Source: a virus
DNA: 38,997 nucleotides
IMG/VR virus record: IMGVR_UViG_3300044712_000465
Location: 1-38,997 of that record
Direction: 5' to 3' (one strand)
Below are positions 79 to 38,997 of this stretch, piece by piece. Both the position numbers and the translations under genes were made by a program. Under the pieces are notes generated by a model that was not told the DNA's origin, made no database searches, and saw only the letters and a list, made by a program, of their open reading frames with translations. Position 1 is the stretch's first letter. The number at the start of each line of letters is the position of its first letter.

Positions 79-99
79 ATTAATTCAACATCAATTTAT
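1..99. repeat. Terminal direct repeat, left copy
   Basis: Bases 1-99 are identical to 38855-38953. The match stops at base 100, where this copy has T and the right copy has C. A 99-base end overlap is typical of a circular or circularly permuted phage genome assembled as a linear contig, which gives a unit length of 38,854 bp. It could also be a k-mer-sized assembly overlap; the sequence alone cannot separate this from a true short terminal repeat. Confidence 0.9.
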
Positions 100-138
100 T
101 GTGATTAAATAGTATCATATACTACCATTCTTTGTCAA
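79..138 (-). promoter_or_regulatory. Early promoter copy 1 with downstream box
   Basis: Read on the minus strand there is a consensus -35 TTGACA (133-138), an 18-bp spacer and -10 TACTAT (109-114) preceded by TG (extended -10). Then comes the shared 17-bp element AAATTGATGTTGAATTA (81-97), ending 2 bp before the ATG at 76-78. A perfect 15-bp palindrome, tagtatcatatacta (110-124), covers the -10 and part of the spacer, which suits an operator. The -35 is inside the last codons of the gene at 122-418. Confidence 0.85.
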
Positions 139-2494: not shown

Positions 2495-2514
2495 ATTTGT
2501 TTATTAATAAATTA

Positions 2515-2877: not shown

Positions 2878-2936
2878 TAATTCAACATCAATTTATTTAT
2901 ATTTCGATAGTATCACGAGATGATACTCTTTGTCAA
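2878..2936 (-). promoter_or_regulatory. Early promoter copy 2 with spacer palindrome
   Basis: On the minus strand: -35 TTGACA (2931-2936), 18-bp spacer, -10 TACTAT (2907-2912) with TG before it, then the 17-bp element (2878-2894). A perfect palindrome with 7-bp arms, agtatca-cgaga-tgatact, lies at 2909-2927 across the -10 and spacer and would hide the -10 if bound by a dimer. The -35 overlaps the TGA stop of the gene at 2933. It drives 2515-2874, recT and the small genes beyond. Confidence 0.85.
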
Positions 2937-3271
2937 ATCCTCTTGTTAAAATTAATCCTATATTTGCGTATTCTCTTATCATTTGCAAGTGACATAATGT
3001 TTTCAGGCTGATATAAAATTCCTCTGATTCTAGGGTATAATTCTTTTCCTCTCATTTGATAACATTTGTTCATTTTGAAAAACTCTTCGTTTGAACTTGT
3101 ATTAACAACAAACTTAAAAAAATGATGTGCATTCTTATCATAAAAATCATGAACGATATTACCAATTATATTAATCTTCTTTCTTTCTTTTGAAGAATAG
3201 AACTTAGCTTTAAATATAGTTCCAACAACCAAATTCTTTTCATTTGACCATTTATACATTTTCACTTTCAT
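2933..3271 (-). CDS. Hypothetical basic 112-aa protein
   Basis: A very basic protein of 112 residues (many Lys and Arg, especially at the C-terminus), probably nucleic-acid-associated, with no recognised family. Two starts are possible: ATG at 3269-3271, or the Met at residue 5 (3257-3259). Both overlap the end of the replication gene at 3252, so coupling is expected. It ends in TGA, which is part of the -35 sequence of promoter copy 2; it is one of only two TGA stops that I verified in this window. Confidence 0.65.
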   Translation of the reverse strand: MKVKMYKWSNEKNLVVGTIFKAKFYSSKERKKINIIGNIVHDFYDKNAHHFFKFVVNTSSNEEFFKMNKCYQMRGKELYPRIRGILYQPENIMSLANDKRIRKYRINFNKRI

Positions 3272-3788
3272 CAGAAATATTACCTAACTTCCATCCAAAC
3301 TTTGATGATAGATATTTTCTTCTTTCATCTCTTCTATTTTCTTTTTCTATTTCTTCTTTGTTTTTTGTATTTAGTATTTTATATTTTACTTTTCTATTTA
3401 TGTCTAGTTGTTGACTAGTTAACAACAGGTTGCCAACTACTTCAATAACACACTCTGGAAGATAACTTAATTCACTCATAAGAGCATTGAATTGTCTATC
3501 ATTTCCATCAAGATAACTTTGATACTTAATCATATTTGTAACAATCACATAACCGTTTAAAAATTTTATTTTGTTATCAGTTTCAAATTTATGTTTGATT
3601 TGATTAACTTCTTCTAAATCTTTTAGGTTTAGATCCATTTGAATAACTCTATCAGGTAATTCATAAGCAGGGAGTAAACCTACACATTCGTTTGAAATGA
3701 AATAGAGGAAAGCGAGTTTCTCAATCTGAGAGAGTGTCGTTATATAGTTATCTCTCCAGAACTTCGTGTGAATAATACGAGTTTTCAT
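3252..3788 (-). CDS. Phage replication initiator / DnaD-like N-terminal domain protein
   Basis: A 178-residue protein whose first 110 residues follow the pattern of phage replisome-organiser winged-helix domains: RIIHTKFWRDNYITTLS, then EKLAFLYFISNECVGLLPAY, then a KIKFLNGYVIVTNMIKYQSY strand-helix. In that family it recruits the helicase loader to the phage origin. The usual C-terminal partner-binding domain is short or absent; instead there is a charged tail (about 140-178), so it may be a reduced version. It is one of the few genes with a visible Shine-Dalgarno (AAAGGAC, 5 bases from the ATG) and it follows a long leader hairpin and promoter copy 3. Confidence 0.7.
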   Translation of the reverse strand: MKTRIIHTKFWRDNYITTLSQIEKLAFLYFISNECVGLLPAYELPDRVIQMDLNLKDLEEVNQIKHKFETDNKIKFLNGYVIVTNMIKYQSYLDGNDRQFNALMSELSYLPECVIEVVGNLLLTSQQLDINRKVKYKILNTKNKEEIEKENRRDERRKYLSSKFGWKLGNISDESENV

Positions 3789-3799
3789 AATGTCCTTTC

Positions 3800-3853
3800 G
3801 GTCTTATAGATCGACAAACTAAATTGATGAAAAGCTTGTCGACCCGTAAAACC
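3800..3853 (-). promoter_or_regulatory. Long imperfect hairpin in 5' leader of replication gene
   Basis: Two 18-base arms, 3836-3853 and 3800-3817, are inverted copies around an 18-base loop. Seven bases next to the loop pair perfectly (TCGACAA with TTGTCGA), and the rest pairs with three G-U wobbles and one mismatch. It sits after promoter copy 3 and just before the Shine-Dalgarno and ATG of the gene at 3252-3788. No U-tract follows, so it is not a typical terminator. It may control translation of the replication protein, or be part of the origin. Confidence 0.65.
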
Positions 3854-3867
3854 TATCAATTTTCAAA

Positions 3868-3918
3868 TAATTCAACATCAATTTTGTATAACATATTCCA
3901 GATTTTCTACCTTGTCAA
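3868..3918 (-). promoter_or_regulatory. Early promoter copy 3
   Basis: On the minus strand: -35 TTGACA (3913-3918), 17-bp spacer, -10 TATGTT (3890-3895), then the shared 17-bp element (3868-3884). The -10 and spacer differ from the other copies and lack an obvious palindrome, while the -35 and downstream element are kept, so the element has been conserved independently of the rest. The -35 lies in the last codons of the gene at 3907-4185. It reads into the leader hairpin and the replication gene. Confidence 0.8.
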
Positions 3919-6351: not shown

Positions 6352-6816
6352 TTAATTAAAATGCAATGTACATAGAACTAGGACATTAGTTCCACCAACT
6401 TTAGATTCTAGCACGTGCCCTATTTCTTTGAAATGTGTATCAGTTGCGGGAAGTCCAGAACCTGGATTAGTAGTACCTATTGCTCTCCCATTTGTATCAG
6501 CACATAATGCAATTTCTCCCCTTGTTGCAGCAATAGTATCTTTAAGTAAGACTTGACATGTTGAACCACTAACCCATACATACATTTCACTACCCTCTGC
6601 AATTCCTGCTTCTTGTACAACACCAAAAGCATCATATTCATTCGCTTGTAGTATTGCTTCTTTATCAGCAGTTGTTGAAGGTGAAATCACTTCACCCTTT
6701 ACAGAAGTATGACCAGTTCTATTAATAATTTTGACTAAGAATCCTCTTTCACCAGTAGCAGAATCACTACCTATTGCAACAACCCCGCTTCCATTACTTA
6801 TTAATTGAATAGCCAT
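6352..6816 (-). CDS. Small beta-rich structural protein (DUF2190/decoration-like)
   Basis: A 154-residue Gly, Ala, Thr-rich protein. Its segments (VKGEVISPSTTADKEAILQA, GVVQEAGIAEGSEMYVWVSG, IGHVLESKVGG) read like the beta-sandwich pattern of DUF2190-type capsid decoration proteins, which have a 'dynamic property value' core. It is encoded next to the long tail fibre rather than in the head operon, so it could be a fibre head, fibre cap or decoration protein. The ATG is six bases after the fibre gene's stop. Confidence 0.6.
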   Translation of the reverse strand: MAIQLISNGSGVVAIGSDSATGERGFLVKIINRTGHTSVKGEVISPSTTADKEAILQANEYDAFGVVQEAGIAEGSEMYVWVSGSTCQVLLKDTIAATRGEIALCADTNGRAIGTTNPGSGLPATDTHFKEIGHVLESKVGGTNVLVLCTLHFN

Positions 6817-6822
6817 TTGTAT

Positions 6823-9045
6823 TTATGCTGAAATTATTTGTTTAGTAACATAGTTTCCAGATTCTCTTCTTTCAACAACAAGATTGTTTCCACTTCTTAT
6901 GATCCTCCATGATCCATCAGTTGCTCTATCTCCAAAGTAGAATCCTGCTGCAATAGTAGTTATTTCAACATCTCCATTTGCATATATGTCTAATACTTTA
7001 GCAAAAGCAGCACCATTAGCTAAATGAATCTCTAAATCAGCAGCTCCAATTGTTGCAGAATGACTAACATTCTTAAATGCCATTACACCAGTAAACATAT
7101 TTCCTGCATTCCTATTTGAAATTGCCGCATAGTTTCCAACTGTTGTATTTGTATTTTGTAGAATACTTTGTGTTGTCAATGGAGAAGTTTGAGTACTTGA
7201 CATTAAGTTTCTAAATCCACCATTGATTGATTCAACTCCTAAATCACTTGCAATTAAGAATCTTAATGCACCATTAACAATGAAACTAAGTTGTTGTACA
7301 CCTTCAGTTCCTGTTGTTGTAGATTGTACTGTTATATATCTTTTAGATTCAGCACCAGATACCCATACAGAATTTTCAAACGATATTGTATTCGATGCTT
7401 TTTGATCTGCTGCACTAGTTGCAGTTCCTTGTGTGTTTGCTCTTAGTGTTCCATCTGCAAGATATTCCCAAACTTTTCTAACAGTTGCACCATTTGCTAA
7501 ATGAATTTCAAGATTAGAACTTCCAGTTGTTGGATCATGTGATACATTTCTAAATAGTAGACCTGCAGTTACCATACCACCAGCATTATCATGTCTAATT
7601 ACAGAATAGTTATTAATTGTAGTGTTAAGATTTCTTAATGAAAAAGATGTTGATGCAGAAAGACCCGTTGTTGTTGCAGTAGTAGTTGCGAGTTGTGTTG
7701 ATTGATTAATGAAGATAGTTGATGGAACTCCAGATATACCAGTAAAATACATTGCAACATTAGTACCCATTTTTATTCTCAAATCACTTCTATCTGCTGT
7801 TGTACTTGTTGCTTCTGCAAAAATATTCCATACACCCTTAGCTTCAGCACTTCCATTCCATCTACTACTTTCAAATGTCAAAACATTACTATTTTTTTGA
7901 TCTGCAAAACCAGTTGCATTAGCACCATTTTGTAATAGTTTCAGATTACTATCTGCCGTTATTAATCCTTTAGTTCCTGCTGAATTACTTGAGAGATTAA
8001 GGTTCTCACTATTTTGAGTACCACCTATTATTGTTTGACCACCTGCAATTCCAGTTATAAGATTATTTTTAACCTCATTTAATGTTCTAGTAAGACCATT
8101 GGAGAATGTTAAAACTTGCTCGGGTGTATAACCTATTGCATCTTGTTTTGCATTCCATGTATTTTTTTCAATATCAGTCACTAGTCTATGAGTACTATCA
8201 TCAGTCAATTGTGATAATTGTGTTGGAATATCTCCAATGTCTGCTTTAGCATTCCAATTTGAAATATCCGTATCTGTTACCAATCGATGTGTTGCATCAT
8301 CTGAAAGTTCTGATAATGCAGTCGGTATATCCTCAATAAACGCAAAAGTTCCTGATTTATCAGGTAGACTTGCAGTTTTATCATCATTAGTTGAAAGCGA
8401 TGTAATAAAGTGTCCATTTCCATTTATGATGTTCCTAATTCTTACTCCATTTGAAAATTCGAGAACTACATCTGAGTTCTGATTTAGTAATGAATAGTTA
8501 TGATAATCAACAATAGCAACTAATTCAGATTCTATTACGTAAGTTCCAATAGGTTGAAAAGTGTCATCAGATTCTGATTTAGTATAGTAATTTCCTTTCT
8601 CACTATTCCATACTGGATCGAGTTCAGTTTGTATAGCAGTTGCAATAAGAGAATGGTCAAAAGCAATATTGTGAGCATCCATAATTCCTTGAGCAACTCC
8701 AACGTTTTCTTTTCCACTAATATCATTTATAAATCCTGAATCGTTTATCAGATCAGAAGTCTTAGTTGGTATTAATGGAGTTATTAAAGCAATTATTTCT
8801 GTTGGATTAACTGAGAAGTCTATTTCATTAGCATTGAAAGTAATATCAAGAAGATTATTAGAAGATGTTAGCGACTTAAAAGCAAAAACACTTCCATACT
8901 TATAAGCAAATATACCAGCACCATTCCCTAAATTTGCACCATCCGTTATATCTCCACCAGTTGAAGCATTGATAATACCAATGTGTATAACATTGTCTTT
9001 TTCTGCAACAACTTCAAACTTTTGTTCTAATATGTTAACTGACAT
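6823..9045 (-). CDS. Long tail fibre protein
   Basis: A 740-residue protein, the likely host-recognition fibre. It has an N-terminal part (1-170) with YYTKSESDDTF and SDLINDSGFI repeats, then two short repeats of the THRLVTDT...WNAK type (243-266 and 274-300) common in phage fibres. The C-terminal half has two copies of a module of about 155 residues (376-535 and 543-696) sharing NVSH...LEIHLANGA and ADQK.SN...FE. It ends with GDRATDGSWRIIRSGNNLVVERRE. There is no chaperone or peptidase motif. Its start overlaps the stop of 9035-9394. Confidence 0.85.
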   Translation of the reverse strand: MSVNILEQKFEVVAEKDNVIHIGIINASTGGDITDGANLGNGAGIFAYKYGSVFAFKSLTSSNNLLDITFNANEIDFSVNPTEIIALITPLIPTKTSDLINDSGFINDISGKENVGVAQGIMDAHNIAFDHSLIATAIQTELDPVWNSEKGNYYTKSESDDTFQPIGTYVIESELVAIVDYHNYSLLNQNSDVVLEFSNGVRIRNIINGNGHFITSLSTNDDKTASLPDKSGTFAFIEDIPTALSELSDDATHRLVTDTDISNWNAKADIGDIPTQLSQLTDDSTHRLVTDIEKNTWNAKQDAIGYTPEQVLTFSNGLTRTLNEVKNNLITGIAGGQTIIGGTQNSENLNLSSNSAGTKGLITADSNLKLLQNGANATGFADQKNSNVLTFESSRWNGSAEAKGVWNIFAEATSTTADRSDLRIKMGTNVAMYFTGISGVPSTIFINQSTQLATTTATTTGLSASTSFSLRNLNTTINNYSVIRHDNAGGMVTAGLLFRNVSHDPTTGSSNLEIHLANGATVRKVWEYLADGTLRANTQGTATSAADQKASNTISFENSVWVSGAESKRYITVQSTTTGTEGVQQLSFIVNGALRFLIASDLGVESINGGFRNLMSSTQTSPLTTQSILQNTNTTVGNYAAISNRNAGNMFTGVMAFKNVSHSATIGAADLEIHLANGAAFAKVLDIYANGDVEITTIAAGFYFGDRATDGSWRIIRSGNNLVVERRESGNYVTKQIISA
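6958..7920 (-). repeat. Tandem duplicated fibre module
   Basis: Two coding repeats, 7441-7920 (fibre residues 376-535) and 6958-7419 (543-696), align through shared landmarks: ADQK then FE and WxxGAE/GSAE, a TTxxxxNY segment, xNAGxMxT, F(R/K)NVSH, and LEIHLANGA. DNA identity is clearly lower than protein similarity, so the duplication is old. A modular duplicated fibre end is typical of receptor-binding variation. Confidence 0.75.
8146..8319 (-). repeat. Short fibre repeats (THRLVTD...WNAK)
   Basis: Two copies of a unit of about 25 residues (fibre residues 243-266 and 274-300) with the pattern LSxLxDDxTHRLVTDxxxxxWNAK. These triple-helix or linker repeats are frequent in fibres of phages of Gram-positive bacteria and probably trimerise. 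Confidence 0.7.
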
Positions 9046-15716: not shown

Positions 15717-16477
15717 TTATGTTCTCCTATTATTCGAACTGTTATTAATTGAATCTTGAGCATCCTCTTCATCTTGTTGCTTTTTAATTTGCTCAAGTTC
15801 ATTTAGATATATAACCAATTGTAACTCATAAGGGGATATGGTGTCCAATTGTTCCCATGTTAAACCATGAACAATTGTTTGATATTTATATCGGAGATAA
15901 TCATAATATTCTTCATCAGATAGTTTACTAGGTCTAATGGTAACCTTTTCAATCTTTCCAGTTTGCCTATTCTCAATCTCTTCAATCCAGGAATTCTTCT
16001 GTAGAATGAATCGTTTGTATCTATCTAATTTTTTTTTGGGAGAGTACCTAAAGCTGATTGTACTATTTCATCAATGATTTGTTCATCAAACTCTAGTATA
16101 TCTTCTTTAGTCATTTCACGATCTGTTTTAGTTTCATTATCGTAAATACTTCCAGATATAAATCTTTCAACTACAAACTTCTGAAATGTTTTGAGTAAAT
16201 CTTGAGAAGTCTTTTCTGCTTCTTTTAATAAAGCTTCTTCTTTTGCTAGTAATTCTGGTGAACTCTCTTTTCCAAAAGTTGCATCGCTATCCAATTGAGA
16301 TTGAACTCTTTTAAGTTCTCTAGTAAGTCTATAATCTTCTCTAGTGAATTTAATGTTTACTTGCTTGAAATCCATTGCATCACGAAAACCTTTCATTGCA
16401 ATGAGTATGTAACTATTTTTCCATGTATCATCGTATTCTTTTAAGTCAATACGAATTTTTCTAACTATTTTTGACAT
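15717..16477 (-). CDS. Tail assembly chaperone, -1 frameshift product (gpGT-like)
   Basis: Translation starts at the 16025-16477 ATG and slips -1 on the A-run at 16029-16037, then continues in another open frame to TAA at 15717-15719. The product would be about 253 residues: 149 common ones, a Lys, then 103 more (beginning LDRYKRFILQKNSWIEEIE). The downstream frame has no ATG, is open right through the slip site, and fills the otherwise empty stretch before the tape measure. Position between tail tube and tape measure is where siphoviruses encode the G/GT pair. The extension is Glu, Lys and Tyr-rich, and the stop abuts the tape-measure gene. Confidence 0.8.
16025..16477 (-). CDS. Tail assembly chaperone, short form (gpG-like)
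   Basis: A 150-residue, charged, helical protein beginning MSKIVRKIRIDLKEYDD and ending LPKKN at TAG (16025-16027). Like lambda gpG it is made in excess, while a minority of ribosomes make the longer form. It lies directly between the major tail protein (16514-17536) and the tape measure. The assignment rests on position, size and the slippery end; sequence similarity to known chaperones is not visible by eye. Confidence 0.8.
   Translation of the reverse strand: MSKIVRKIRIDLKEYDDTWKNSYILIAMKGFRDAMDFKQVNIKFTREDYRLTRELKRVQSQLDSDATFGKESSPELLAKEEALLKEAEKTSQDLLKTFQKFVVERFISGSIYDNETKTDREMTKEDILEFDEQIIDEIVQSALGTLPKKN
16029..16040 (-). promoter_or_regulatory. Programmed -1 frameshift slippery site
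   Basis: On the minus strand the end of the short gene reads CCC followed by nine A, then TTAG: codons CCA AAA AAA AAT TAG. A -1 slip on A-AAA-AAA lets both tRNAs re-pair fully and leads to AAA TTA GAT in the long frame. The TAG stop sits two codons after the slip position. I did not find an obvious downstream stem, but a nine-A run can slip alone. Confidence 0.75.
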
Positions 16478-16513
16478 AGTATAAAGTGATTCAAATTAAT
16501 TCAATTCTTCTTT

Positions 16514-23879: not shown

Positions 23880-25208
23880 TTAGAACGAACTTACAAACAC
23901 TCCTCCATTATTAATCAATCTCAATGCCATTTCTAAAGTATCAAGCACGTCAAACTTCTCACAATCAGGATAGTCTTGCATCTCATTCCATAATTCATTA
24001 TCACCTTTAAACAGGATTTGTCCAGTATTTATGAAAGGTTCAAGACTTTCAATTCTTGTTTCTTTACTTTGTGATTGTTGTATCGCTTCGAATGGTATGT
24101 ATAATTCTTTCTCTTTACTCTTAGCTTCTATTGTATTAAGCAAGTATTTCTGAAATTGTATAGCCTCAACTCCATATCTTTGAAACTTATAAGGAGAACT
24201 TAAAACTCTATTAATAACCAAATCAATTCCAATATCAAAACCATTACTATCTACTTCATAGATTTGACCAGTTGTAACATGTTGACCTAAGATTACATTT
24301 CCTATCAAACTTCCTTTCTTGTTTTCACCTAAAGCAGGATCAAGAGCAGCAAATATCTTCAAGTCTTTAATAGGAGGGAGAATATCATATTTCTTTGGTT
24401 TAAAGTAAGTGAACTCATTAGACTTAGGAAATCGTACAAGATAGTATCTCTTCCAGTCCTTAGTAGTTGTTTGTGTTTTCTTTTGAGCAAGTAGTGTTGT
24501 ATCAATACGTCCTTCTTTAATTGCTTGTTTAAGTGAGATTCTAACTTTAGTAAATAGTTCATCATTCCATGCATCTTCAAATATACTTTTCTCTTTACAG
24601 TTTCCAGACATGACAATCTTTCCCCATCCGCTATCTGTTTCAATCATTCTTACTACTTTTGAGTATTGTTCTTTTCGTTTAATCAATCCTGCTTCTTCTA
24701 ACAGAATGACATCTCCACCTTCTCCAACTACTCCTTCTCCTTCGCTTTGAATACTCTTTGAATCAATAGAGGTAACATAAATCCATCCTCCTGTTTTCCA
24801 CTTCAAAGCTTGTTGACTTGCTTGAACTTTAAGTTTATCTACATTAGTCATATTATTAAGATTGAGCAACCCATCACTAATATCAGGATGGTCACCTAAA
24901 TGCGCAATAACATATTCCATAATCTTTTCAGCTTTGGCTTTAGAACCTGCAACAATAGGAACTTTTAAATGATAAAGTACAGCAAGAAGAATTGCTGCAA
25001 TAGCTAATGTTTCTGATTTACCATATCGAGTTGGTGCTGAAATCCAAACGAATCGTTCTCGCTTATTTAAAACAGCTTCAATCATTTGCAATTGACCATA
25101 TACAGCGAGATATGGCTTTTGATTGTCATGTCTAAATAGCTTACTAATTAGTTCCCGTAAGTACTTTTGCGTCTTTGTTGTTAGAATCTTGTTCTTGTTC
25201 TGTATCAT
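23880..25208 (-). CDS. terL: Terminase large subunit
   Basis: A 442-residue packaging ATPase-nuclease. Walker A is SAPTRYGKSE (residues 57-66), Walker B is GDVILLEEAG (165-174) with the catalytic Glu, and the coupling motif is MSGN (200-203). The nuclease domain starts at FAALDPALG (about 287-295), and its last acidic site is in FDVLDTLEMAL near the C-terminus. It cuts and pumps DNA into the prohead through the portal encoded 39 bases downstream. At 442 residues it is at the short end of the usual range. The chosen ATG (25206-25208) overlaps the small-subunit end by 65 bases; a later start would lose N-terminal residues that look genuine. Confidence 0.92.
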   Translation of the reverse strand: MIQNKNKILTTKTQKYLRELISKLFRHDNQKPYLAVYGQLQMIEAVLNKRERFVWISAPTRYGKSETLAIAAILLAVLYHLKVPIVAGSKAKAEKIMEYVIAHLGDHPDISDGLLNLNNMTNVDKLKVQASQQALKWKTGGWIYVTSIDSKSIQSEGEGVVGEGGDVILLEEAGLIKRKEQYSKVVRMIETDSGWGKIVMSGNCKEKSIFEDAWNDELFTKVRISLKQAIKEGRIDTTLLAQKKTQTTTKDWKRYYLVRFPKSNEFTYFKPKKYDILPPIKDLKIFAALDPALGENKKGSLIGNVILGQHVTTGQIYEVDSNGFDIGIDLVINRVLSSPYKFQRYGVEAIQFQKYLLNTIEAKSKEKELYIPFEAIQQSQSKETRIESLEPFINTGQILFKGDNELWNEMQDYPDCEKFDVLDTLEMALRLINNGGVFVSSF

Positions 25209-25638
25209 TTTGTTCTAATATTTGTTGTAATCCATCTGCAATTGATTGTAATGGTTTGGCAATACTTTCACCATTACTTGTTTGGTCAAACTTCTTTCTA
25301 AAGTTAGCATACTTCATTTGTAGCAATTCCATATATCTGAAATCTGTATAAGCTTTCTTCCATGAGACCTTATCTAACATAAACATAGAATTCTTCATAT
25401 GAGTATCCCAACAAGTATTCCACCAGTTAACAAATTCTGGATCTTTATTCCAGGTATACCAAGTATCACGATTAATTCCGGTTCCGACAATCTCCTTTCC
25501 TTCTTCATCTAAATCATTAGCACACATTGCAGTTATAGTTGGCTTCCCTTCCATGTTAAATGATTTCTGTAAAATCTTCACTTGTAATTCTGAAGGAGCA
25601 AAAGTTGTCGTTTTTTTGTCGGTTGTTTCTGGTGTCAT
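25144..25638 (-). CDS. terS: Terminase small subunit
   Basis: A 164-residue protein directly upstream of terL. After a short polar N-terminus (TTDKKTTTFAPSELQ) there is a helix-turn-helix-like region (residues 18-60, with LDEEGKEIVGTGINRDTWYTW), then WWNTCWDTHMKNSM and a helical central domain (65-115), and an acidic Gln/Glu/Asn-rich tail. Small subunits bind pac or cos DNA and feed it to TerL. The order and overlap with terL support this assignment even though no exact family is recognised. The sequence around TerS would be the place to look for the packaging site. Confidence 0.8.
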   Translation of the reverse strand: MTPETTDKKTTTFAPSELQVKILQKSFNMEGKPTITAMCANDLDEEGKEIVGTGINRDTWYTWNKDPEFVNWWNTCWDTHMKNSMFMLDKVSWKKAYTDFRYMELLQMKYANFRKKFDQTSNGESIAKPLQSIADGLQQILEQNDTEQEQDSNNKDAKVLTGTN

Positions 25639-25645
25639 TTTTATA

Positions 25646-26668
25646 TTAGTTCAATTTAGATAAAAGTTGCCTATATACCTCATTAGCCACATTAGCCATC
25701 ATAACAGGTGGTACACTCATTCCTATTAAGTACTTAGGAAATATATCAAGATAATCATAATCTAAAGGAAAACTTCCACATAATGCATATTCCTTAGTTA
25801 CTAATTGTCTAGGTTCAGAATAATGAAATTGCCCATCATGATTAGCATCAATAGTTGAAAGAACTTTATCTTTAACAATCTTTCTTTTAGTCTTGAACTT
25901 TCCAACTGATTCTCCTGGTCTTGCTCTCTTCCAATACTCAAGATACTTATCAGTTAGCGGTTTCTTTTCATCATCATTGATAACAACCAATTTCTCAATA
26001 GTAGAAAAGAGAATAGGTTTATCATCGAATTTTAGAACTAACTTAGGAAGATTCAAATCTTTTCGTTTACATATAAAGAAAACCCTTTCTCTCCTTTGAG
26101 GTAATCCCATACTAGCACCATTAAGCAAGAACAATTGAACTTCATATCCTATCGAATTAAGAGCATCTATAATTGATTTAGTGTATGCTTTTGCATTCCC
26201 TGCTAACATTCCTTTCACATTCTCAGCTATAGCAATCTTTGGTTTAAGTCTATCTACTAGTTTGATCCATTCAAAGAATAAATCTGAAAGTATCTGTTCT
26301 GATTGTCCCTCTCTAAACTTCTTCATCTTCTTCCATGTCTTTTCGCGAGTTCCAGCCATTGAGAACGTAGAACATGGAGGAGAACCATCTAGTATATCTA
26401 AATCATACAATCTTTCATCAAGTTCCATGTTTAGTAAATCGGTAATTGGACATTCATAGTAAATAGATGGATTATGATTTGCTTTGTATACCTTCGCCAT
26501 TTGAGGATCAATATCATTAGCACCAATCACATCATATCCTGCTAATTTATAACCCATTGTTGAACCTTCACCACATGCGAAAGTACTAAATACTTTACAT
26601 CCATGATGTGTAATATTCTCAACATTGTAGTTATCTCTTTTTAACCATCTATAATCAAAGTTACTCAT
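25646..26668 (-). CDS. C5-cytosine DNA methyltransferase
   Basis: A 340-residue enzyme with all main motifs of the Dcm/HhaI family in order: I FACGEGS (residues 30-36), IV GSPPCSTFS (95-103, catalytic Cys99), VI AENVKG (148-153), VIII QRRERVFF (191-198), and X near the C-terminus (SVPPVMMANVANEVY). The variable target-recognition region lies at about 215-300. It transfers methyl from SAM to C5 of cytosine. Placed between ParB-like and terminase genes, it probably modifies phage DNA against host restriction. No partner restriction gene is seen, so it is a solitary methylase. The target is unknown. Confidence 0.95.
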   Translation of the reverse strand: MSNFDYRWLKRDNYNVENITHHGCKVFSTFACGEGSTMGYKLAGYDVIGANDIDPQMAKVYKANHNPSIYYECPITDLLNMELDERLYDLDILDGSPPCSTFSMAGTREKTWKKMKKFREGQSEQILSDLFFEWIKLVDRLKPKIAIAENVKGMLAGNAKAYTKSIIDALNSIGYEVQLFLLNGASMGLPQRRERVFFICKRKDLNLPKLVLKFDDKPILFSTIEKLVVINDDEKKPLTDKYLEYWKRARPGESVGKFKTKRKIVKDKVLSTIDANHDGQFHYSEPRQLVTKEYALCGSFPLDYDYLDIFPKYLIGMSVPPVMMANVANEVYRQLLSKLN

Positions 26669-27218: not shown

Positions 27219-27307
27219 TAGTCTTTCTTAATAAGTTTAAATAACCACCATAATAATAATATCAAGTAAATAAACCATATAGCACCAACAATATATAATA
27301 AAAACAT
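27218..27307 (-). CDS. 29-aa membrane micropeptide
   Basis: A complete frame with ATG 27305-27307 and stop 27218-27220. The product MFLLYIVGAIWFIYLILLLW then WLFKLIKKD is a single membrane helix with a basic C-terminal tail, so the C-terminus is probably cytoplasmic. Both ends use TAATG overlaps: its ATG overlaps the stop of 27307-27579, and its own stop overlaps the ATG of 26661-27218. Such exact joins on both sides make chance unlikely. Function is unknown; comparable micropeptides may bind host membrane proteins. Confidence 0.7.
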   Translation of the reverse strand: MFLLYIVGAIWFIYLILLLWWLFKLIKKD

Positions 27308-27579
27308 TATATGTGATTCTTTAATTTATATCCGTAATTAATTATCTTTATACCTGTTATTAACAAGAAGAACTTTAAACCAGACATAATAGCAACTTCA
27401 TATATATTGACTGTTATCTTTGAATATCTATGGTGATATATCTCTGAGCCATAAGTTGCAACACAATTATTCTTTTCAAGTAATCTCTTTCTCTTGAAAT
27501 AAGTTTCTGGTTTCTTGATATGATATGTTCCTGGTTTCATTATGAATTGTTTATTCTTTTTAAATAAATTTCTGAACAT
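27307..27579 (-). CDS. Small basic protein with C-terminal hydrophobic segment
   Basis: A 90-residue protein, Lys/Tyr-rich in the first 55 residues, with a hydrophobic helix near 64-80 (IMSGLKFFLLITGIKIINYG). The start may be the ATG at 27577-27579, overlapping the glycosyltransferase stop by 20 bases, or the Met at residue 14 (27538-27540). No family is recognised. The Lys-rich N-terminus and monotopic helix suggest an inner-membrane-associated protein. It may work with the sugar cassette that ends here. Confidence 0.6.
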   Translation of the reverse strand: MFRNLFKKNKQFIMKPGTYHIKKPETYFKRKRLLEKNNCVATYGSEIYHHRYSKITVNIYEVAIMSGLKFFLLITGIKIINYGYKLKNHI

Positions 27580-29128
27580 GTTGTTTTATCATCAAATTAA
27601 TCCAATCACTATTCATATTGGCAATGTTTAATGTATTCCATTGTCCGCTATTAGCATCTTTCAAATAATATCTTTGTTCTGTTGGAGTTTCACCAACAAT
27701 CAATGATTCTTTTTCTGTAAAGTGTTCAACCTTAATATCCCATCTATGCAAAAGTTTGTAACCACTATGTGATAGAAGATAACCTAATTTCACATCAGGT
27801 CCTAAAGGTAAATTATCATCCAAAGGGATATCGTATTTTCTGAATATATCTGTATAGGTTACAAAGCAATACCATCCAGTCCCTTGAACTTCATCCAATC
27901 CTTCTGATTTCTCTTTTTCACTATAGAGGACAACAGGTTTACAATTAACATCAATTACTTTCCATGCAGGGCATAATCTTACACCCCATCTTCCAATAAT
28001 ATTACCTTGAACAAAATGTGCTTTCTCTTGTTTAAGTGTTTCTAATAGTTTTATATATGCATCAGGTTGTGGAAGTGAATCATCTTCTGATCCTAATAGT
28101 ATTTCTCCTCTTGCTTCAGTTAGTATTCTATGCCAATTCTGTTTGATTCTTGCTCTTCTTTGAGCAACGTTTGCAAATTCTGGTAAAGGATTATTACCAG
28201 TTCTTATTAATTTTGCTCCTGCAAATTTCTTAGAGTTAGTAAAGAAGTTCTTTAACCATGTATATAGAACTTGATCCTGAGAGTCAATTAATACAATAGC
28301 TTCTGTATTCTTTGGTATCTCTAGTTTGTTCATACAAAGAATATACTTATCAAGTGCCCATGGTCTTGAGAACATTAATGAGAATGTGAACTCTGGACTT
28401 TCACAATACTTTAGTGTTTCAACTCTTTCAGCAGTTCCATTTGCTCTATTTTCAACAGCTTTAAGTGTGCTAGTCATTGAATGATAAACTGATAGTTCAT
28501 TGAGATATTCTTTTTCTAATGGATTTCTAGCACATAGGAATTCAATCTTGTCTTTCTTTCTTACTACATTTGAAGAATCTCTGAAATTGAATACTCTCAC
28601 ATTCATATAACAGATTTTGGTATTCAAACTATAGTTCTGATCTGAAGCAATAAAATTATTCTTGCCGTCAAATAGCCAATGATGTCTCCCTGCATAATGC
28701 ATTCCCTTGCGCCATTTGAATAATCTAGTTACCATGTAAGGAGTTTCGTAGAGATTTGATAAAGCCCATGCATAACCAACTTCACAATCCATATACTTTC
28801 TAATCTCTTCTGCATTAGTTATATATTCATCTCCATCAAGTTTAAAGAAATAATCTCCTTCTTTTCCAGTCTTAAACATTAAAGTTCTTTTCTCAATCTG
28901 ATTCCCGTAAGGAGTTGTACATTCAAATAGTTTGATTTTGTTCTCTACATCAGGAAACTTCTTTATTAAATCAATAGTTCCATCAGTTGAATATGGCTTT
29001 TCATGAGGATAGTTCTTGTATGCTCCATCGTAAATATGAATTTCATCTGCTACCCTATAAATGCTATCTATTGCTTTAAGAATATTCTTAGCTTCGTTAA
29101 ACACATTCATTACAAATATCAGTCTCAT
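27560..29128 (-). CDS. Two-domain glycosyltransferase (GT-A fold, bifunctional)
   Basis: A 522-residue protein with two nucleotide-sugar domains. The first (1-250) begins RLIFVMNVFNEAKNILKAID and has the metal-binding DGDE at 98-101. The second (about 280-510) begins EAIVLIDSQDQVLYTWL, has a DxD-like GSEDDS (346-351) and ends with GYKLLHRWDIKVEHF. Each follows the GT-A plan, so the enzyme could add two sugars in turn. Acceptor and donor are unknown: possible acceptors are modified DNA bases, phage structural proteins or host surface glycan. It is last in the sugar cassette and overlaps its upstream neighbour by four bases (ATGA). Confidence 0.85.
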   Translation of the reverse strand: MRLIFVMNVFNEAKNILKAIDSIYRVADEIHIYDGAYKNYPHEKPYSTDGTIDLIKKFPDVENKIKLFECTTPYGNQIEKRTLMFKTGKEGDYFFKLDGDEYITNAEEIRKYMDCEVGYAWALSNLYETPYMVTRLFKWRKGMHYAGRHHWLFDGKNNFIASDQNYSLNTKICYMNVRVFNFRDSSNVVRKKDKIEFLCARNPLEKEYLNELSVYHSMTSTLKAVENRANGTAERVETLKYCESPEFTFSLMFSRPWALDKYILCMNKLEIPKNTEAIVLIDSQDQVLYTWLKNFFTNSKKFAGAKLIRTGNNPLPEFANVAQRRARIKQNWHRILTEARGEILLGSEDDSLPQPDAYIKLLETLKQEKAHFVQGNIIGRWGVRLCPAWKVIDVNCKPVVLYSEKEKSEGLDEVQGTGWYCFVTYTDIFRKYDIPLDDNLPLGPDVKLGYLLSHSGYKLLHRWDIKVEHFTEKESLIVGETPTEQRYYLKDANSGQWNTLNIANMNSDWINLMIKQHVQKFI

Positions 29129-32104: not shown

Positions 32105-32788
32105 TTATTTATGAACAAAATAAGCTTTAGAATCTTTTTCGTATGCTTTGAACTTAGAATGAAGTGGATAACCAGTTATAATATCTTCATCTCTTAATCT
32201 ATGTATTACCTCATTAAATACAAACATATTGCAATTTCTTTCTTTAACATCAAGAACTTCCATCATAGTCACCATTGAACTAAGAAGAAATATTGCCCTT
32301 TCTCTTTTACAACCCCAAACTCCAGGATTGTATATTATACGTTTATCATATTCCTCATTTAACAACTTCTCATAGCGTTCACCTGTTACATTTGCGTTCT
32401 TAAATTGCATTCTTGACCATTTGCTATTGCACCAGTAGTTTTCTTCATTTGAAACATAAACCACTTTATTGTTCTCTATCTTTGGAAGATGATTAATTGT
32501 TACATCAAATAAATCTGTAAACCAACAATCGTCAAGTTCTTCATGCTTTAGAATATAATCTAAATAGAAACTAAATCTTTGGTCATTGGCACTCCATGGA
32601 TAGTCAAATACTCTAACAAAAGTAACCTTAGGATAGTTTTGCTTGAAAGCATCGTTTAATTCATCATGAAAGATTACACCTTTATCAATACCTTGATACC
32701 AATACTTCATGTATACATCTACATTTGGAGGGAATACACTTGCACCTTGTGGATCAGATTTCTTAGTCAAGTATGTTGTGAAAACCAT
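32105..32788 (-). CDS. Glycosyltransferase-like protein, GT-A type
   Basis: A 227-residue protein starting MVFTTYLTKKSDPQ, a common N-terminus in phage or capsular sugar-nucleotide transferases, with DLFD at 92-95 as the DxD-like metal site, VYVSNEENYW, and IIYNPGVWGCKRER (about 150-163) whose NPG/GxxGC form is typical of galactosyl- or glucosyltransferases. Assignment by these patterns is moderate. It lies three bases before the GT4 gene and four bases after the GT2 gene, all cotranscribed. Confidence 0.75.
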   Translation of the reverse strand: MVFTTYLTKKSDPQGASVFPPNVDVYMKYWYQGIDKGVIFHDELNDAFKQNYPKVTFVRVFDYPWSANDQRFSFYLDYILKHEELDDCWFTDLFDVTINHLPKIENNKVVYVSNEENYWCNSKWSRMQFKNANVTGERYEKLLNEEYDKRIIYNPGVWGCKRERAIFLLSSMVTMMEVLDVKERNCNMFVFNEVIHRLRDEDIITGYPLHSKFKAYEKDSKAYFVHK

Positions 32789-32792
32789 AATA

Positions 32793-33467
32793 TTATGATT
32801 TTGAAGTTAGTCTTTCTGAATGTCTCCTACAATAATAGAGAGGTTCAGGTTCATAGCCAAAAGTAATTTTCTTGTTAATCAAATCTGTTAACCATTTTGT
32901 ATCTTCTTTCCGTTTCAAATCTGTTTTGATTCCTACTTCTGTTAGATTTGTTTTGAATATTGCTGTAGCAAAATTCTGATTGTTATGAAGTCCCTCACGA
33001 TTAATATACTTGGAAACATCAATTCTTTGTACAGTTCTTGTCTGGTAATACTCATTAGGCTCAGTAAAGAAGTACATTGCCGAAAATAGCATATCTACTT
33101 TTTGATTTTCAATTGCTCTCACTAAATATTCTAATCTATATTTATGTGAAATATCATCTGAATCTTGCCATACACAATAATCTGCTTTCTTCCACTCTTC
33201 CATATAATCAATAGTTGGCTGATTAATAATCTTAAAGATTTCATTCCTTGCATAGCCTACACCTCTATTTGTATGACTAGTAATAAGATTAATATCTAAA
33301 TCATCATGTGCATCTATTATCTTGTTAACAATATCATTTGTTTTATCTGTAGAGCCGTCATCATAAATAATAATTCTGAACTCCTGGTATGTTTGATCCA
33401 AAATACTTTGAATAGCTTGTTCAACATACTTCTCACGATTAAATACAGGCATTAATACATTAATCAT
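32793..33467 (-). CDS. Glycosyltransferase family 2
   Basis: A 224-residue enzyme. The GT2 start is at the Met of MINVLMPVFNREKYVEQAIQ, ATG 33465-33467; an earlier ATG (33494) would extend it into the upstream gene. It has IIIYDDGSTDKT (about residues 32-43, the UDP-binding Asp) and VWQDSDDIS (about 92-100, DxD-like). It transfers sugar from a nucleotide donor. Its ATG overlaps the stop of 33460-33687, so translation is coupled. It is the first enzyme in the sugar cassette. Confidence 0.9.
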   Translation of the reverse strand: MINVLMPVFNREKYVEQAIQSILDQTYQEFRIIIYDDGSTDKTNDIVNKIIDAHDDLDINLITSHTNRGVGYARNEIFKIINQPTIDYMEEWKKADYCVWQDSDDISHKYRLEYLVRAIENQKVDMLFSAMYFFTEPNEYYQTRTVQRIDVSKYINREGLHNNQNFATAIFKTNLTEVGIKTDLKRKEDTKWLTDLINKKITFGYEPEPLYYCRRHSERLTSKS

Positions 33468-36639: not shown

Positions 36640-36909
36640 TTATTTTATACTGTAAACCATAATTATATTAGCTATTGTCATAACTATAACTGCAATACAA
36701 ATAAGAATAGTTATAATATCGAATATTTCAATATTCTTGAATCTGTATGTTGCTTTAGTTCTCTTAGAATCTTTATTCACTTTGGTATGAACTGCTTTTC
36801 TTTTTTCAACAAAAGGACTAAGTGTATGCTTAAATGGACTGCTTTCAACTTTGACTGGTCTACCAAATACAAATGAAGCTTTCTTTGTATCTAATTTCAA
36901 ATTTCTCAT
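36640..36909 (-). CDS. Basic protein with C-terminal membrane helix
   Basis: An 89-residue protein: a Lys/Arg/Phe-rich N-terminal 55 residues, then one membrane helix at about 63-86 (IFDIITILICIAVIVMTI and onward). A tail-anchored arrangement is probable, with the basic part in the cytoplasm. It is the first gene behind promoter copy 4: the downstream box ends 2 bases before its ATG. Function is unknown. Confidence 0.65.
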   Translation of the reverse strand: MRNLKLDTKKASFVFGRPVKVESSPFKHTLSPFVEKRKAVHTKVNKDSKRTKATYRFKNIEIFDIITILICIAVIVMTIANIIMVYSIK

Positions 36910-36974
36910 ATTAATTCAACATCAATTTATCTACATTTGAATAGTATCACACACACCTATTCTTTGTCAACAGA
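36906..36974. repeat. 69-bp repeat, internal copy (same as window end)
   Basis: Identical over 69 bases to 38929-38997, the right end of the window. It contains the complete promoter copy 4 and the last codons of the gene at 36957. The match is exact, while other promoter copies are only partly alike, so the two came from recent exchange or from an assembly branch. Confidence 0.85.
36912..36970 (-). promoter_or_regulatory. Early promoter copy 4 with downstream box
   Basis: On the minus strand: -35 TTGACA (36965-36970), 18-bp spacer, -10 TACTAT (36941-36946), extended -10 TG present, then the 17-bp element (36912-36928). The arms AATAG...CTATT frame the spacer and -10. The -35 is inside the last codons (SVDKE) of the gene at 36957. 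It drives 36640-36909 and beyond. Confidence 0.85.
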
Positions 36975-37696: not shown

Positions 37697-37837
37697 TTAA
37701 TTAATTGATCCATCTATTCTATGAATCAGATCTATAATATAAACTATATATACAGAACCTAACTTTTTATTTGCAATAAAGAACTGTAAAGCTTTTATAA
37801 TTATTTCTTTTTCAAAGTCACTACAATCTTTCATCAT
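37697..37837 (-). CDS. 46-aa micro-ORF
   Basis: A complete frame: ATG ATG at 37832-37837, stop TAA 37697-37699. The product begins MMKDCSDFEKEIIIKALQFF and ends DLIHRIDGSIN. It is amphipathic and helical with no membrane segment. It is cotranscribed in the small-gene group behind the YqaJ gene. Being too short for most gene finders, it is easily missed. Function is unknown. Confidence 0.55.
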   Translation of the reverse strand: MMKDCSDFEKEIIIKALQFFIANKKLGSVYIVYIIDLIHRIDGSIN

Positions 37838-37855
37838 TATGTTTTAGTAATTAAT

Positions 37856-38008
37856 TTAATTCTCTAGCAGATGACCTAAATCACCTAAACCTAAAGCATT
37901 TAGTACTTCTTGACCTTCTTCAAATGTAATTTCACTAGATTCAACAGCTTCAACTATATTTTCAATTACTTCAACTTCTGTTTCTTCAGGATCACTAAGA
38001 GTTTCCAT
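37856..38008 (-). CDS. 50-aa acidic micro-ORF
   Basis: A complete frame with ATG at 38006-38008, overlapping the TAA of the gene at 38008 (TAATG), and stop at 37856-37858. It encodes 50 residues, strongly acidic (METLSDPEETEVEVIENIVE then SSEITFEEGQEVLNALGLG). Small, acidic phage early proteins often mimic DNA or bind a host protein; that is inference. Codon use and TAATG coupling indicate a real gene. Confidence 0.65.
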   Translation of the reverse strand: METLSDPEETEVEVIENIVEAVESSEITFEEGQEVLNALGLGDLGHLLEN

Positions 38009-38244
38009 TACTTTATATCTATACATCTACAATAAACTATTTCTGGATAGTGATCCACCTCAAGAACCATTTTTACTATTCCTTTAAACCCATCAATCTT
38101 TCTAAGTTTTTCTTCAACTTTAGTAATAAAGCTTCCTATTCCATCTTTGTAATTTACAGTCACGACTAATATAGTTATATTCTGTATTCTTATATTACCA
38201 TAATGATCTGAAATATTTTCTGTATGAATCGTTTTAAACTTCAT
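38008..38244 (-). CDS. Hypothetical 78-aa protein
   Basis: A 78-residue mixed alpha-beta protein: IRIQNITILVVTVNYKDG strands, a helix ITKVEEKLRKIDG, then VKMVLEVDHYPEIVYCRCID. It is followed immediately by the acidic micro-ORF and preceded two bases upstream by the nuclease gene, so it is in the recombination operon. A dsDNA-end accessory role is possible but there is no motif. Confidence 0.65.
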   Translation of the reverse strand: MKFKTIHTENISDHYGNIRIQNITILVVTVNYKDGIGSFITKVEEKLRKIDGFKGIVKMVLEVDHYPEIVYCRCIDIK

Positions 38245-38245
38245 T

Positions 38246-38932
38246 CTAATTAAGCTTTAAGTTATTCATGTATTCTCTAGCAACCATAATCTTCAATATC
38301 AATTTGTTTATTCCTGCTTCATCATAATCATAATTAAACACTTTAATTCTATCTTCTGGTTTCAAATCATCAAACATCATATTCTTTTCAACTTGCAGTT
38401 CCATTTCATCATATGCATCAGTACCTTCTTCTAAGAACTTTTGATACACCATTCTATTCTTTTCGGCAACAATCATATGAATAGGAGCATTATTAAGACA
38501 ATATACTAAATCGAACTTCTTTTTATCTTTGAGCATCATATAACCTTGACCTTGCCAATAATAATCTTTATTATCACCTTTAGATTTAAAGTAAGTGTGC
38601 ATATCCCACGATGACTTTACATCCACAATCCTATCTCCCATTATGTAATCAGGTTCACCAGAAATATATTCATTCTCAAATCTCTCTTTGTTCTTTAATA
38701 CTAAACCACCACCATAATGCTTTTGAACGAGAGTCAAAGAATCTTCTTCTGTATATAAACCCTTTTCAATATACTTATTGAATATCTCTTTAGTTCTTCC
38801 ATATACAGCTTCAATCCATAACTCTTCAAGATATGTCTTAGTAGTTTCTGAAAGGATCTCCGATTTTGCTCTAGGTTCAGTCATTAACTTTCCTAAAGAA
38901 GAACATCTGAATTTGTAATTATCGAACTTCAT
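38246..38932 (-). CDS. YqaJ-type viral recombinase / exonuclease (PD-(D/E)XK)
   Basis: A 228-residue nuclease of the lambda-exonuclease/YqaJ fold. The active site is GEPDYIMGDRIVDVKSSW (residues 92-109), with D95, D104 and K106 as metal/catalytic residues, followed by YYWQGQGYMML (124-134), the conserved Gln segment. It resects double-stranded ends 5'-3' and hands single strands to RecT at 1508-2494, which is close by on the circular map. An N-terminal LGKLMTEPRA segment is usual in this family. It follows promoter copy 1/5, with the ATG at 38930-38932. Confidence 0.92.
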   Translation of the reverse strand: MKFDNYKFRCSSLGKLMTEPRAKSEILSETTKTYLEELWIEAVYGRTKEIFNKYIEKGLYTEEDSLTLVQKHYGGGLVLKNKERFENEYISGEPDYIMGDRIVDVKSSWDMHTYFKSKGDNKDYYWQGQGYMMLKDKKKFDLVYCLNNAPIHMIVAEKNRMVYQKFLEEGTDAYDEMELQVEKNMMFDDLKPEDRIKVFNYDYDEAGINKLILKIMVAREYMNNLKLN

Positions 38933-38953
38933 ATTAATTCAACATCAATTTAT
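38855..38953. repeat. Terminal direct repeat, right copy
   Basis: Identical to bases 1-99. It includes the start of the YqaJ-type gene and the first part of its promoter leader. After 38953 the two ends differ, so the contig does not simply circularise through this copy. Confidence 0.9.
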
Positions 38954-38997
38954 CTACATTTGAATAGTATCACACACACCTATTCTTTGTCAACAGA
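38929..38997 (-). promoter_or_regulatory. Early promoter copy 5 at contig end (duplicate of copy 4)
   Basis: The last 69 bases equal 36906-36974: -35 TTGACA (38988-38993), -10 TACTAT (38964-38969) and the 17-bp element (38935-38951). Here it stands before the YqaJ gene instead of the 36909 gene. The beginning of the window shows a different promoter (copy 1) in front of the same gene, so this one is either a variant, a recombinant, or an assembly chimera. Confidence 0.75.

Follow-up and report, generated by a model that had tools for sequence, protein, structure and literature searches.

The DNA analysed, here called the window, was the whole 38,997-nt stretch of the IMG/VR virus record IMGVR_UViG_3300044712_000465. 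An exact 17-mer, AAATTGATGTTGAATTA, was found in it at five sites, all on the minus strand (Table 1). The chance expectation, estimated from shuffles, was 1.27 matches even with up to three mismatches.

An earlier note on this DNA had described these sites as five copies of a phage-wide promoter family. The 17-mer was exact at all five, but the one at the window end is not independent, because 38855–38953 is an exact repeat of 1–99 and 38929–38997 an exact repeat of 36906–36974. The first of these repeats closes the contig on itself as a circle. The last 44 nt (38954–38997) are identical to 36931–36974, with the join at a shared 25-nt repeat, and this tail stems either from a chimeric assembly or from a variant promoter in the population. 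The independent loci therefore number four. Nor are they phage-wide: on the circular map of 38.9 kb, all four fall in a stretch of about 6 kb that runs from 36.9 kb past position 0 to 3.9 kb.

This region holds the exonuclease gene, recT, the gene of a DnaD-like helicase loader and small ORFs, and is probably the early region of the phage. The exonuclease gene spans the contig ends, bases 1–78 being the 5' end of the gene at 38246–38932.

Table 1. Positions of the promoters, 17-mer copies, copy-3 leader features and examples of the start-linked motif in the window
Feature	Position	Strand	Remarks
Promoter, copy 1	109–138	-	TTGACA 133–138, 18-nt spacer, TGA-TACTAT, -10 at 109–114
Promoter, copy 2	2907–2936	-	-10 TACTAT 2907–2912; spacer dyad AGTATCA-TCTCG-TGATACT
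Promoter, copy 3	3890–3918	-	TTGACA, 17-nt spacer, TATGTT
Promoter, copy 4	36941–36970	-	Match to the TTGACA/-10 pattern
17-mer, copy 1	81–97	-	5'-UTR; with T98 gives TAAATT (93–98) at -20 of ATG 76–78, exonuclease gene
17-mer, copy 2	2878–2894	-	TAAATT (2890–2895) at -21 of ATG, gene 2515–2874; recT (1508–2494) next downstream
17-mer, copy 3	3868–3884	-	79 nt upstream of DnaD-like gene 3252–3788; A replaces the preceding T, TAAATT lost
17-mer, copy 4	36912–36928	-	TAAATT (36924–36929) at -20 of ATG, gene 36640–36909
17-mer in terminal overlap	38935–38951	-	Repeat of other copies' sequence, not independent
20-bp hairpin in copy-3 leader	3800–3853	-	Folding of all 121 nt of the leader: -28.8 kcal/mol, z -3.35
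TAAATTGATG in hairpin loop, matching part of the element in inverted orientation	3820–3829	+	Only exact match besides copies 1, 2, 4 and the window-end copy
Possible 19-codon leader ORF	3819–3878	-	From ATG in the 17-mer or TTG 3864–3866; TAG at the 3' edge of the loop; speculative
TAATTT	2509–2514	-	At -20 of recT; outside the promoter family
TAATTT	6831–6836	-	At -20 of gene 6352–6816
TAATTT	16493–16498	-	At -21 of gene 16025–16477
TAAATT	25653–25658	-	At -20 of gene 25144–25638
TAATTT	27594–27599	-	At -20 of gene 27307–27579; inside upstream ORF
TAACTT	32804–32809	-	At -21 of gene 32105–32788
TAAATT	37853–37858	-	At -21 of gene 37697–37837
TAACTT	38259–38264	-	At -20 of gene 38008–38244

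Promoters preceding the 17-mer

Read on the minus strand, copies 1, 2 and 4 had the order TTGACAAAG, spacer, TGATACTAT, 11–12 nt, 17-mer, 2–3 nt and ATG. The spacer in these three was 18 nt, and the -10 was of the extended type (TGA-TACTAT). The order in copy 3 was TTGACAAGG, spacer, TATGTT, 5 nt, 17-mer, 79 nt and ATG. The distance of about 11 bases after the -10 that had been given for all copies was thus seen in copies 1, 2 and 4, but not in copy 3. On the other hand, the observation that the element is intact in copy 3 despite its changed -10 and spacer was confirmed: the 17-mer there is exact, with TATGTT and a spacer of 17 nt.

The pattern TTGACA-N16-19-TANNNT gave five matches in the window, every one at a copy of the 17-mer and none elsewhere. 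Since about five matches anywhere in the window were expected by chance, the weight is carried not by their number but by their coincidence with the 17-mer. Pairwise identity between the copies was 100% in TTGACAA and in the 17-mer. It fell to 20–70% in the sequence immediately preceding TTGACA and on either side of the 17-mer. The likeness among the copies starts at TTGACA and stops at the start codon.

The presence of TTGACA in all copies, with a spacer of 17–18 nt, supported the view of a promoter family. A -35 TTGACA and a -10 TANNNT, 16–19 nt apart and upstream of a gene, point to sigma70-type promoters, from which RNA starts can be predicted. Like the sigma70-type early promoters of phages, these have TTGACA, a 17–18-nt spacer and TACTAT, with the extended -10 TGN in three copies; they differ in having a fixed leader that reaches the start codon. 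They are also unlike the Bacteroidota promoter, in which a -7 box TAnnTTTG has TTG about 20 nt upstream: this box was not found at the 17-mer copies, which carry TACTAT instead.

A different set of TTGACA promoters was noticed in L136 (1436, 1495 and 2240), with a spacer dyad AGTAC(A)...(T)GTACT that is a possible repressor operator.

A motif at a fixed distance from start codons

The 17-mer adjoins the ATG in three of the four loci, a feature that the earlier note had missed. This position suggested that it belongs to the 5'-UTR. With an RNA start some 7 nt past the -10, the 17-mer would be 5'-UTR, and the leader of copies 1, 2 and 4 would consist mostly of it.

A Shine-Dalgarno sequence (GGAGG-like, 5–10 nt before the start) was absent from the 17-mer. 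Shine-Dalgarno motifs were essentially absent from the phage as a whole, and AGG before its starts was depleted, not enriched. With the T that precedes it, the 17-mer reads TAAATTGA, placed at -20 in copies 1 and 4 and at -21 in copy 2.

A related motif was present before many other genes. The starts were taken from 54 genes, called in this analysis as ATG-first ORFs. TAANTT occurred at -23 to -18 in 22 of them (about 40%), compared with 13 of 1,089 non-start ATGs (1.19%) on the same coding strand. With the three 17-mer genes left out, 19 of 51 still had it, against a mean of 2.46 and a maximum of 9 in 1,000 shuffles of the upstream sequences.

Alignment of the 54 starts showed T at -20, A at -19 and -18, and T at -15. 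The consensus was TAANTTNA, with A at position 8 in 15 of 21. TAA peaked at -20 or -21, where it was found in 27 genes, and only four of these 27 were stop codons of the upstream ORF. A bias from ATG-first calling is conceivable for TAA in frame at -21, but not for TAA at -20. From the position of TAAATTGA at -20 or -21, the 17-mer was taken to be a full instance of this start-linked motif.

Two other identities for TAANTT were rejected. The Bacteroidota -7 box TAnnTTTG occurred zero times at -23 to -18 before the genes. A promoter -10 was not indicated either: there was no TTG peak at a fixed distance upstream, and eight of the 22 instances lay within the preceding ORF.

Possible roles of the 17-mer

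On balance, and with moderate confidence, we favour a leader for translation initiation as the role of the 17-mer, coupled to an early promoter of sigma70-like type. The earlier note had offered three roles, an operator, an antitermination signal and a leader aiding translation without a Shine-Dalgarno. The last appears to fit best, given the contact with the start codon, the lack of a Shine-Dalgarno and the TAANTT inside.

Each copy would be a compact expression module, made of a sigma70-like early promoter (TTGACA-N17/18-TACTAT) and, downstream of it, a short leader. The leader of copies 1, 2 and 4 would run for about 24–27 nt from the predicted RNA start, consist almost wholly of the 17-mer and end at the start codon. 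The 17-mer would act in the RNA as an initiation region, used by ribosomes independently of Shine-Dalgarno pairing. The core of this region would be TAANTT(NA) at -20/-21, and the stretch from there to the AUG would be A/T-rich and weakly structured. The module may have been copied to several early operons, namely those of the exonuclease, of the gene heading the recT operon and of the small gene before the next operon. The positions, the identity of the copies and the start-linked motif with its enrichment were observed directly; the RNA starts, the early timing and the recruitment of ribosomes by TAANTT are inferred.

Several points go against the leader reading. The gene starts are those called here, conservation of the element is seen within one genome, and the weak enrichment of TAANTT in eight cultured Bacteroidota phages (below) gives no sign that the motif is general. 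A motif of 6–8 letters would not require the 11 letters that follow TAAATT to be invariant, yet they are. Moreover, copy 3 keeps all 17 letters at 79 nt from the DnaD-like start, although the T of TAAATT is lost. The retention of all 17 letters, not just of TAANTT, is left unexplained by the leader reading, copy 3 included.

A rival reading is an operator or activator site. The 17-mer would then be a DNA site at the transcription start, where binding of a phage regulator would control the early promoters jointly. It is identical at all four promoter loci, even where the -10 and spacer have changed, and a partial inverted copy lies near copy 3. However, only five of seven pairs are symmetric by eye, which is not a convincing palindrome, and the distance to the promoter is shifted by 7–8 bp in copy 3. 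Among the ORFs scanned, neither Pfam nor PHROGs revealed an HTH repressor; the sole HTH match was weak, transposase-like and beside the terminase. The spacer dyads of copies 1 and 2 were more operator-like (chance in random 24-mers about 0.04 and 0.008, respectively); such dyads were suggestive in these two copies and absent in copies 3 and 4. If any operator exists, they are better candidates than the 17-mer, for which this role is unlikely.

It is also quite unlikely that the 17-mer has no separate function and marks a promoter segment that was recently duplicated or spread by gene conversion and kept uniform by the phage exonuclease and RecT. The phage does encode these two proteins. A 25-nt stretch that includes the element is common to copies 1 and 4, and it is exactly at this repeat that the contig end looks joined. 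Neutral copies, however, would not be expected to keep only the 17-mer and TTGACAA at 100% in surroundings of 20–70%. The start-linked TAANTT would also be left without an explanation.

The leader of copy 3 brings in a further possibility. Its hairpin stands between the 17-mer and the DnaD-like start, and the loop carries CATCAATTT, complementary to the first nine letters of the 17-mer. The loop could thereby expose CAUCAAUUU(A) for pairing with UAAAUUGAUG, either at the 5' end of the same leader or, in trans, in the leaders of the other early mRNAs, and so block access of ribosomes. The complementarity is perfect over 10 nt and centred on the 12-nt loop, the predicted duplex has about -9.7 kcal/mol, and the hairpin is strong (z -3.35). 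Such a match in the copy-3 leader had a chance of about 0.003–0.013, but it is a single observation found after looking. The pairs are mostly A-U, and a free small RNA had no support. We regard this regulation as improbable; the complementarity is noted, not claimed.

Similarly improbable is that the AUG within the 17-mer opens a tiny upstream ORF that couples or attenuates translation. An AUG is present in every copy, and the stops adjoin or overlap the main AUG in copies 1, 2 and 4. Copies 1 and 4 would encode MLN*, copy 2 would encode MLNYK*, which overlaps the ATG, and the ORF of copy 3 would have 19 codons. An upstream AUG at -16 to -10 is nevertheless usual in this phage (10 of the 54 genes, compared with a column-shuffle mean of 8.9), and was rejected as a special feature. 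In copy 3, the ORF extends across the hairpin's 5' arm as far as the loop, where it stops, a possible leader-peptide arrangement; TTG 3864–3866 lies near where the start codon sits in the other copies.

The antitermination signal was unsupported, as copies 1, 2 and 4 had no boxB-like or conserved hairpin, a hairpin was present in copy 3 only, and no nut-type signal (boxA with a boxB hairpin shortly after the RNA start) was found in the four loci.

Relatives and comparison with initiation in Bacteroidota

A search of 2.9 million viral contigs for the exact 17-mer gave 98 stretches. No TTGACA-type promoter preceded any of them; a single one had TTGAC, by chance, and most resembled coding sequence for proteins, so they were taken as chance matches. 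TTGACA together with the 17-mer gave two matches in 85,000 genomes, both within genes. No relative carrying the element was found in either set, and its conservation is therefore seen within one genome only.

Close relatives were also sought through the DnaD-like and portal proteins, and none was confirmed. The relatives of recT and the exonuclease were distant (at best 58% and 45% over the best segments) and without the element. Named phages gave no nucleotide match. Phages of Nonlabens, Leeuwenhoekiella, Riemerella and others had the closest exonuclease and tape-measure proteins. This suggested that the host is likely, though not proven, to be a member of the Bacteroidota.

Initiation without a Shine-Dalgarno in Flavobacterium johnsoniae (PMC6847099) and Prevotella bryantii (PMC3155529) involves an A/T-rich upstream region with A enriched at -3 and -6. 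The determinants given there for F. johnsoniae are A at -3, -6, -12 and -13 (PMC6847099). The phage likewise lacks a Shine-Dalgarno, is A/T-rich and low in structure upstream of its starts, and is enriched in A at -3 (63% of the 54 genes) and -6 (59%). Both adenines are present in copies 1 and 4, whereas copy 2 has C at -3 and T at -6. The strongest feature of the phage, TAANTT at -20/-21, is absent from the parts of these two accounts that were consulted, where A at -12/-13 is described together with A at -3 and -6.

Eight cultured Bacteroidota phages conformed to the published pattern. A dominates at -11 to -14 and at -3 in these phages, and TAANTT at -23 to -18 is only about 2.7-fold enriched. 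At -14 to -12, A was found in only 33–50% in the present phage, compared with 58–63% in the eight. An uncultured phage (L058 record / L226–L227, IMGVR_UViG_3300017719_000088) had TAANTT at -23 to -18 in six of 21 genes.

As a general host signal, TAANTT was rejected: in about 200 Bacteroidota genomes, TAANTT-N14-ATG was at most in modest excess over the reversed pattern. No peak at -20 was seen in 200 kb of genome G161, whose excess was among the largest. In another such genome, G008, a small sample of 82 genes had seven with the motif against 1.1.

Binding sites of ribosomal protein S1 are loose in sequence. Such a site, or an A/U-rich enhancer, is likewise an A/U-rich segment upstream of the usual Shine-Dalgarno position (PMC5397173), from which the 17-mer and TAANTT differ in their fixed letters and spacing; a role of S1 here is conjectural. 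A/T-rich bias at -20 to -10 has been discussed as a signal of leaderless promoters or of S1 (PMC5397173). No S21 or other ribosomal protein encoded by the phage was found in Pfam scans of its ORFs.

A description of TAANTT at -20 was not found in the literature searched, which is weak evidence since subscription papers were mostly outside its coverage. We propose, tentatively, that TAANTTNA at -20/-21 may be a previously undescribed, dedicated ribosome-recruitment signal that replaces the Shine-Dalgarno at a fixed position. It might be read by a feature of the host ribosome, rRNA or protein, in a lineage of the Bacteroidota, with the 17-mer as its strongest form. The 17-mer itself is known from one genome, and the start-linked TAANTTNA is the part of the finding most worth pursuing. 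How start codons are found without Shine-Dalgarno pairing is only partly understood, and the published determinants are single adenines at -3, -6 and -12/-13. If the proposal is true, a multi-letter motif at a fixed distance before about 40% of the genes of a phage would be a concrete target for mutagenesis, and the promoter-leader units might serve as portable parts for Bacteroidota.

Other repeated leaders were seen in other sequences. The cultured Bacteroidota phage phi39:1 of Cellulophaga (L208) has a 17-nt A/T-rich block, TAACAATTAAACAATTA, a few nucleotides before the start codons of gp01, gp02 and gp06 (upstream of 80, 496 and 3317). This block is comparable to the 17-mer in its placement, but has another sequence and no tie to a TTGACA-type promoter. 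In L104, L105, L110, L118, L120 and L125 (e.g. L104:4351–4385), ACCTTTAAATCAGAATAGAATG is repeated with small variations before several start codons, and also encodes the C-terminus TFKSE* common to the upstream small proteins. In L166 (7935, 8220 and 8998), CCTCCGGCACTAAGT is repeated closely before three start codons. A leader repeated three times in L179 (5042, 5363 and 5812) contains GCCGAAAGGC, which may form a GNRA hairpin, and then, ahead of the ATG, a stretch resembling GGAAAGGA.
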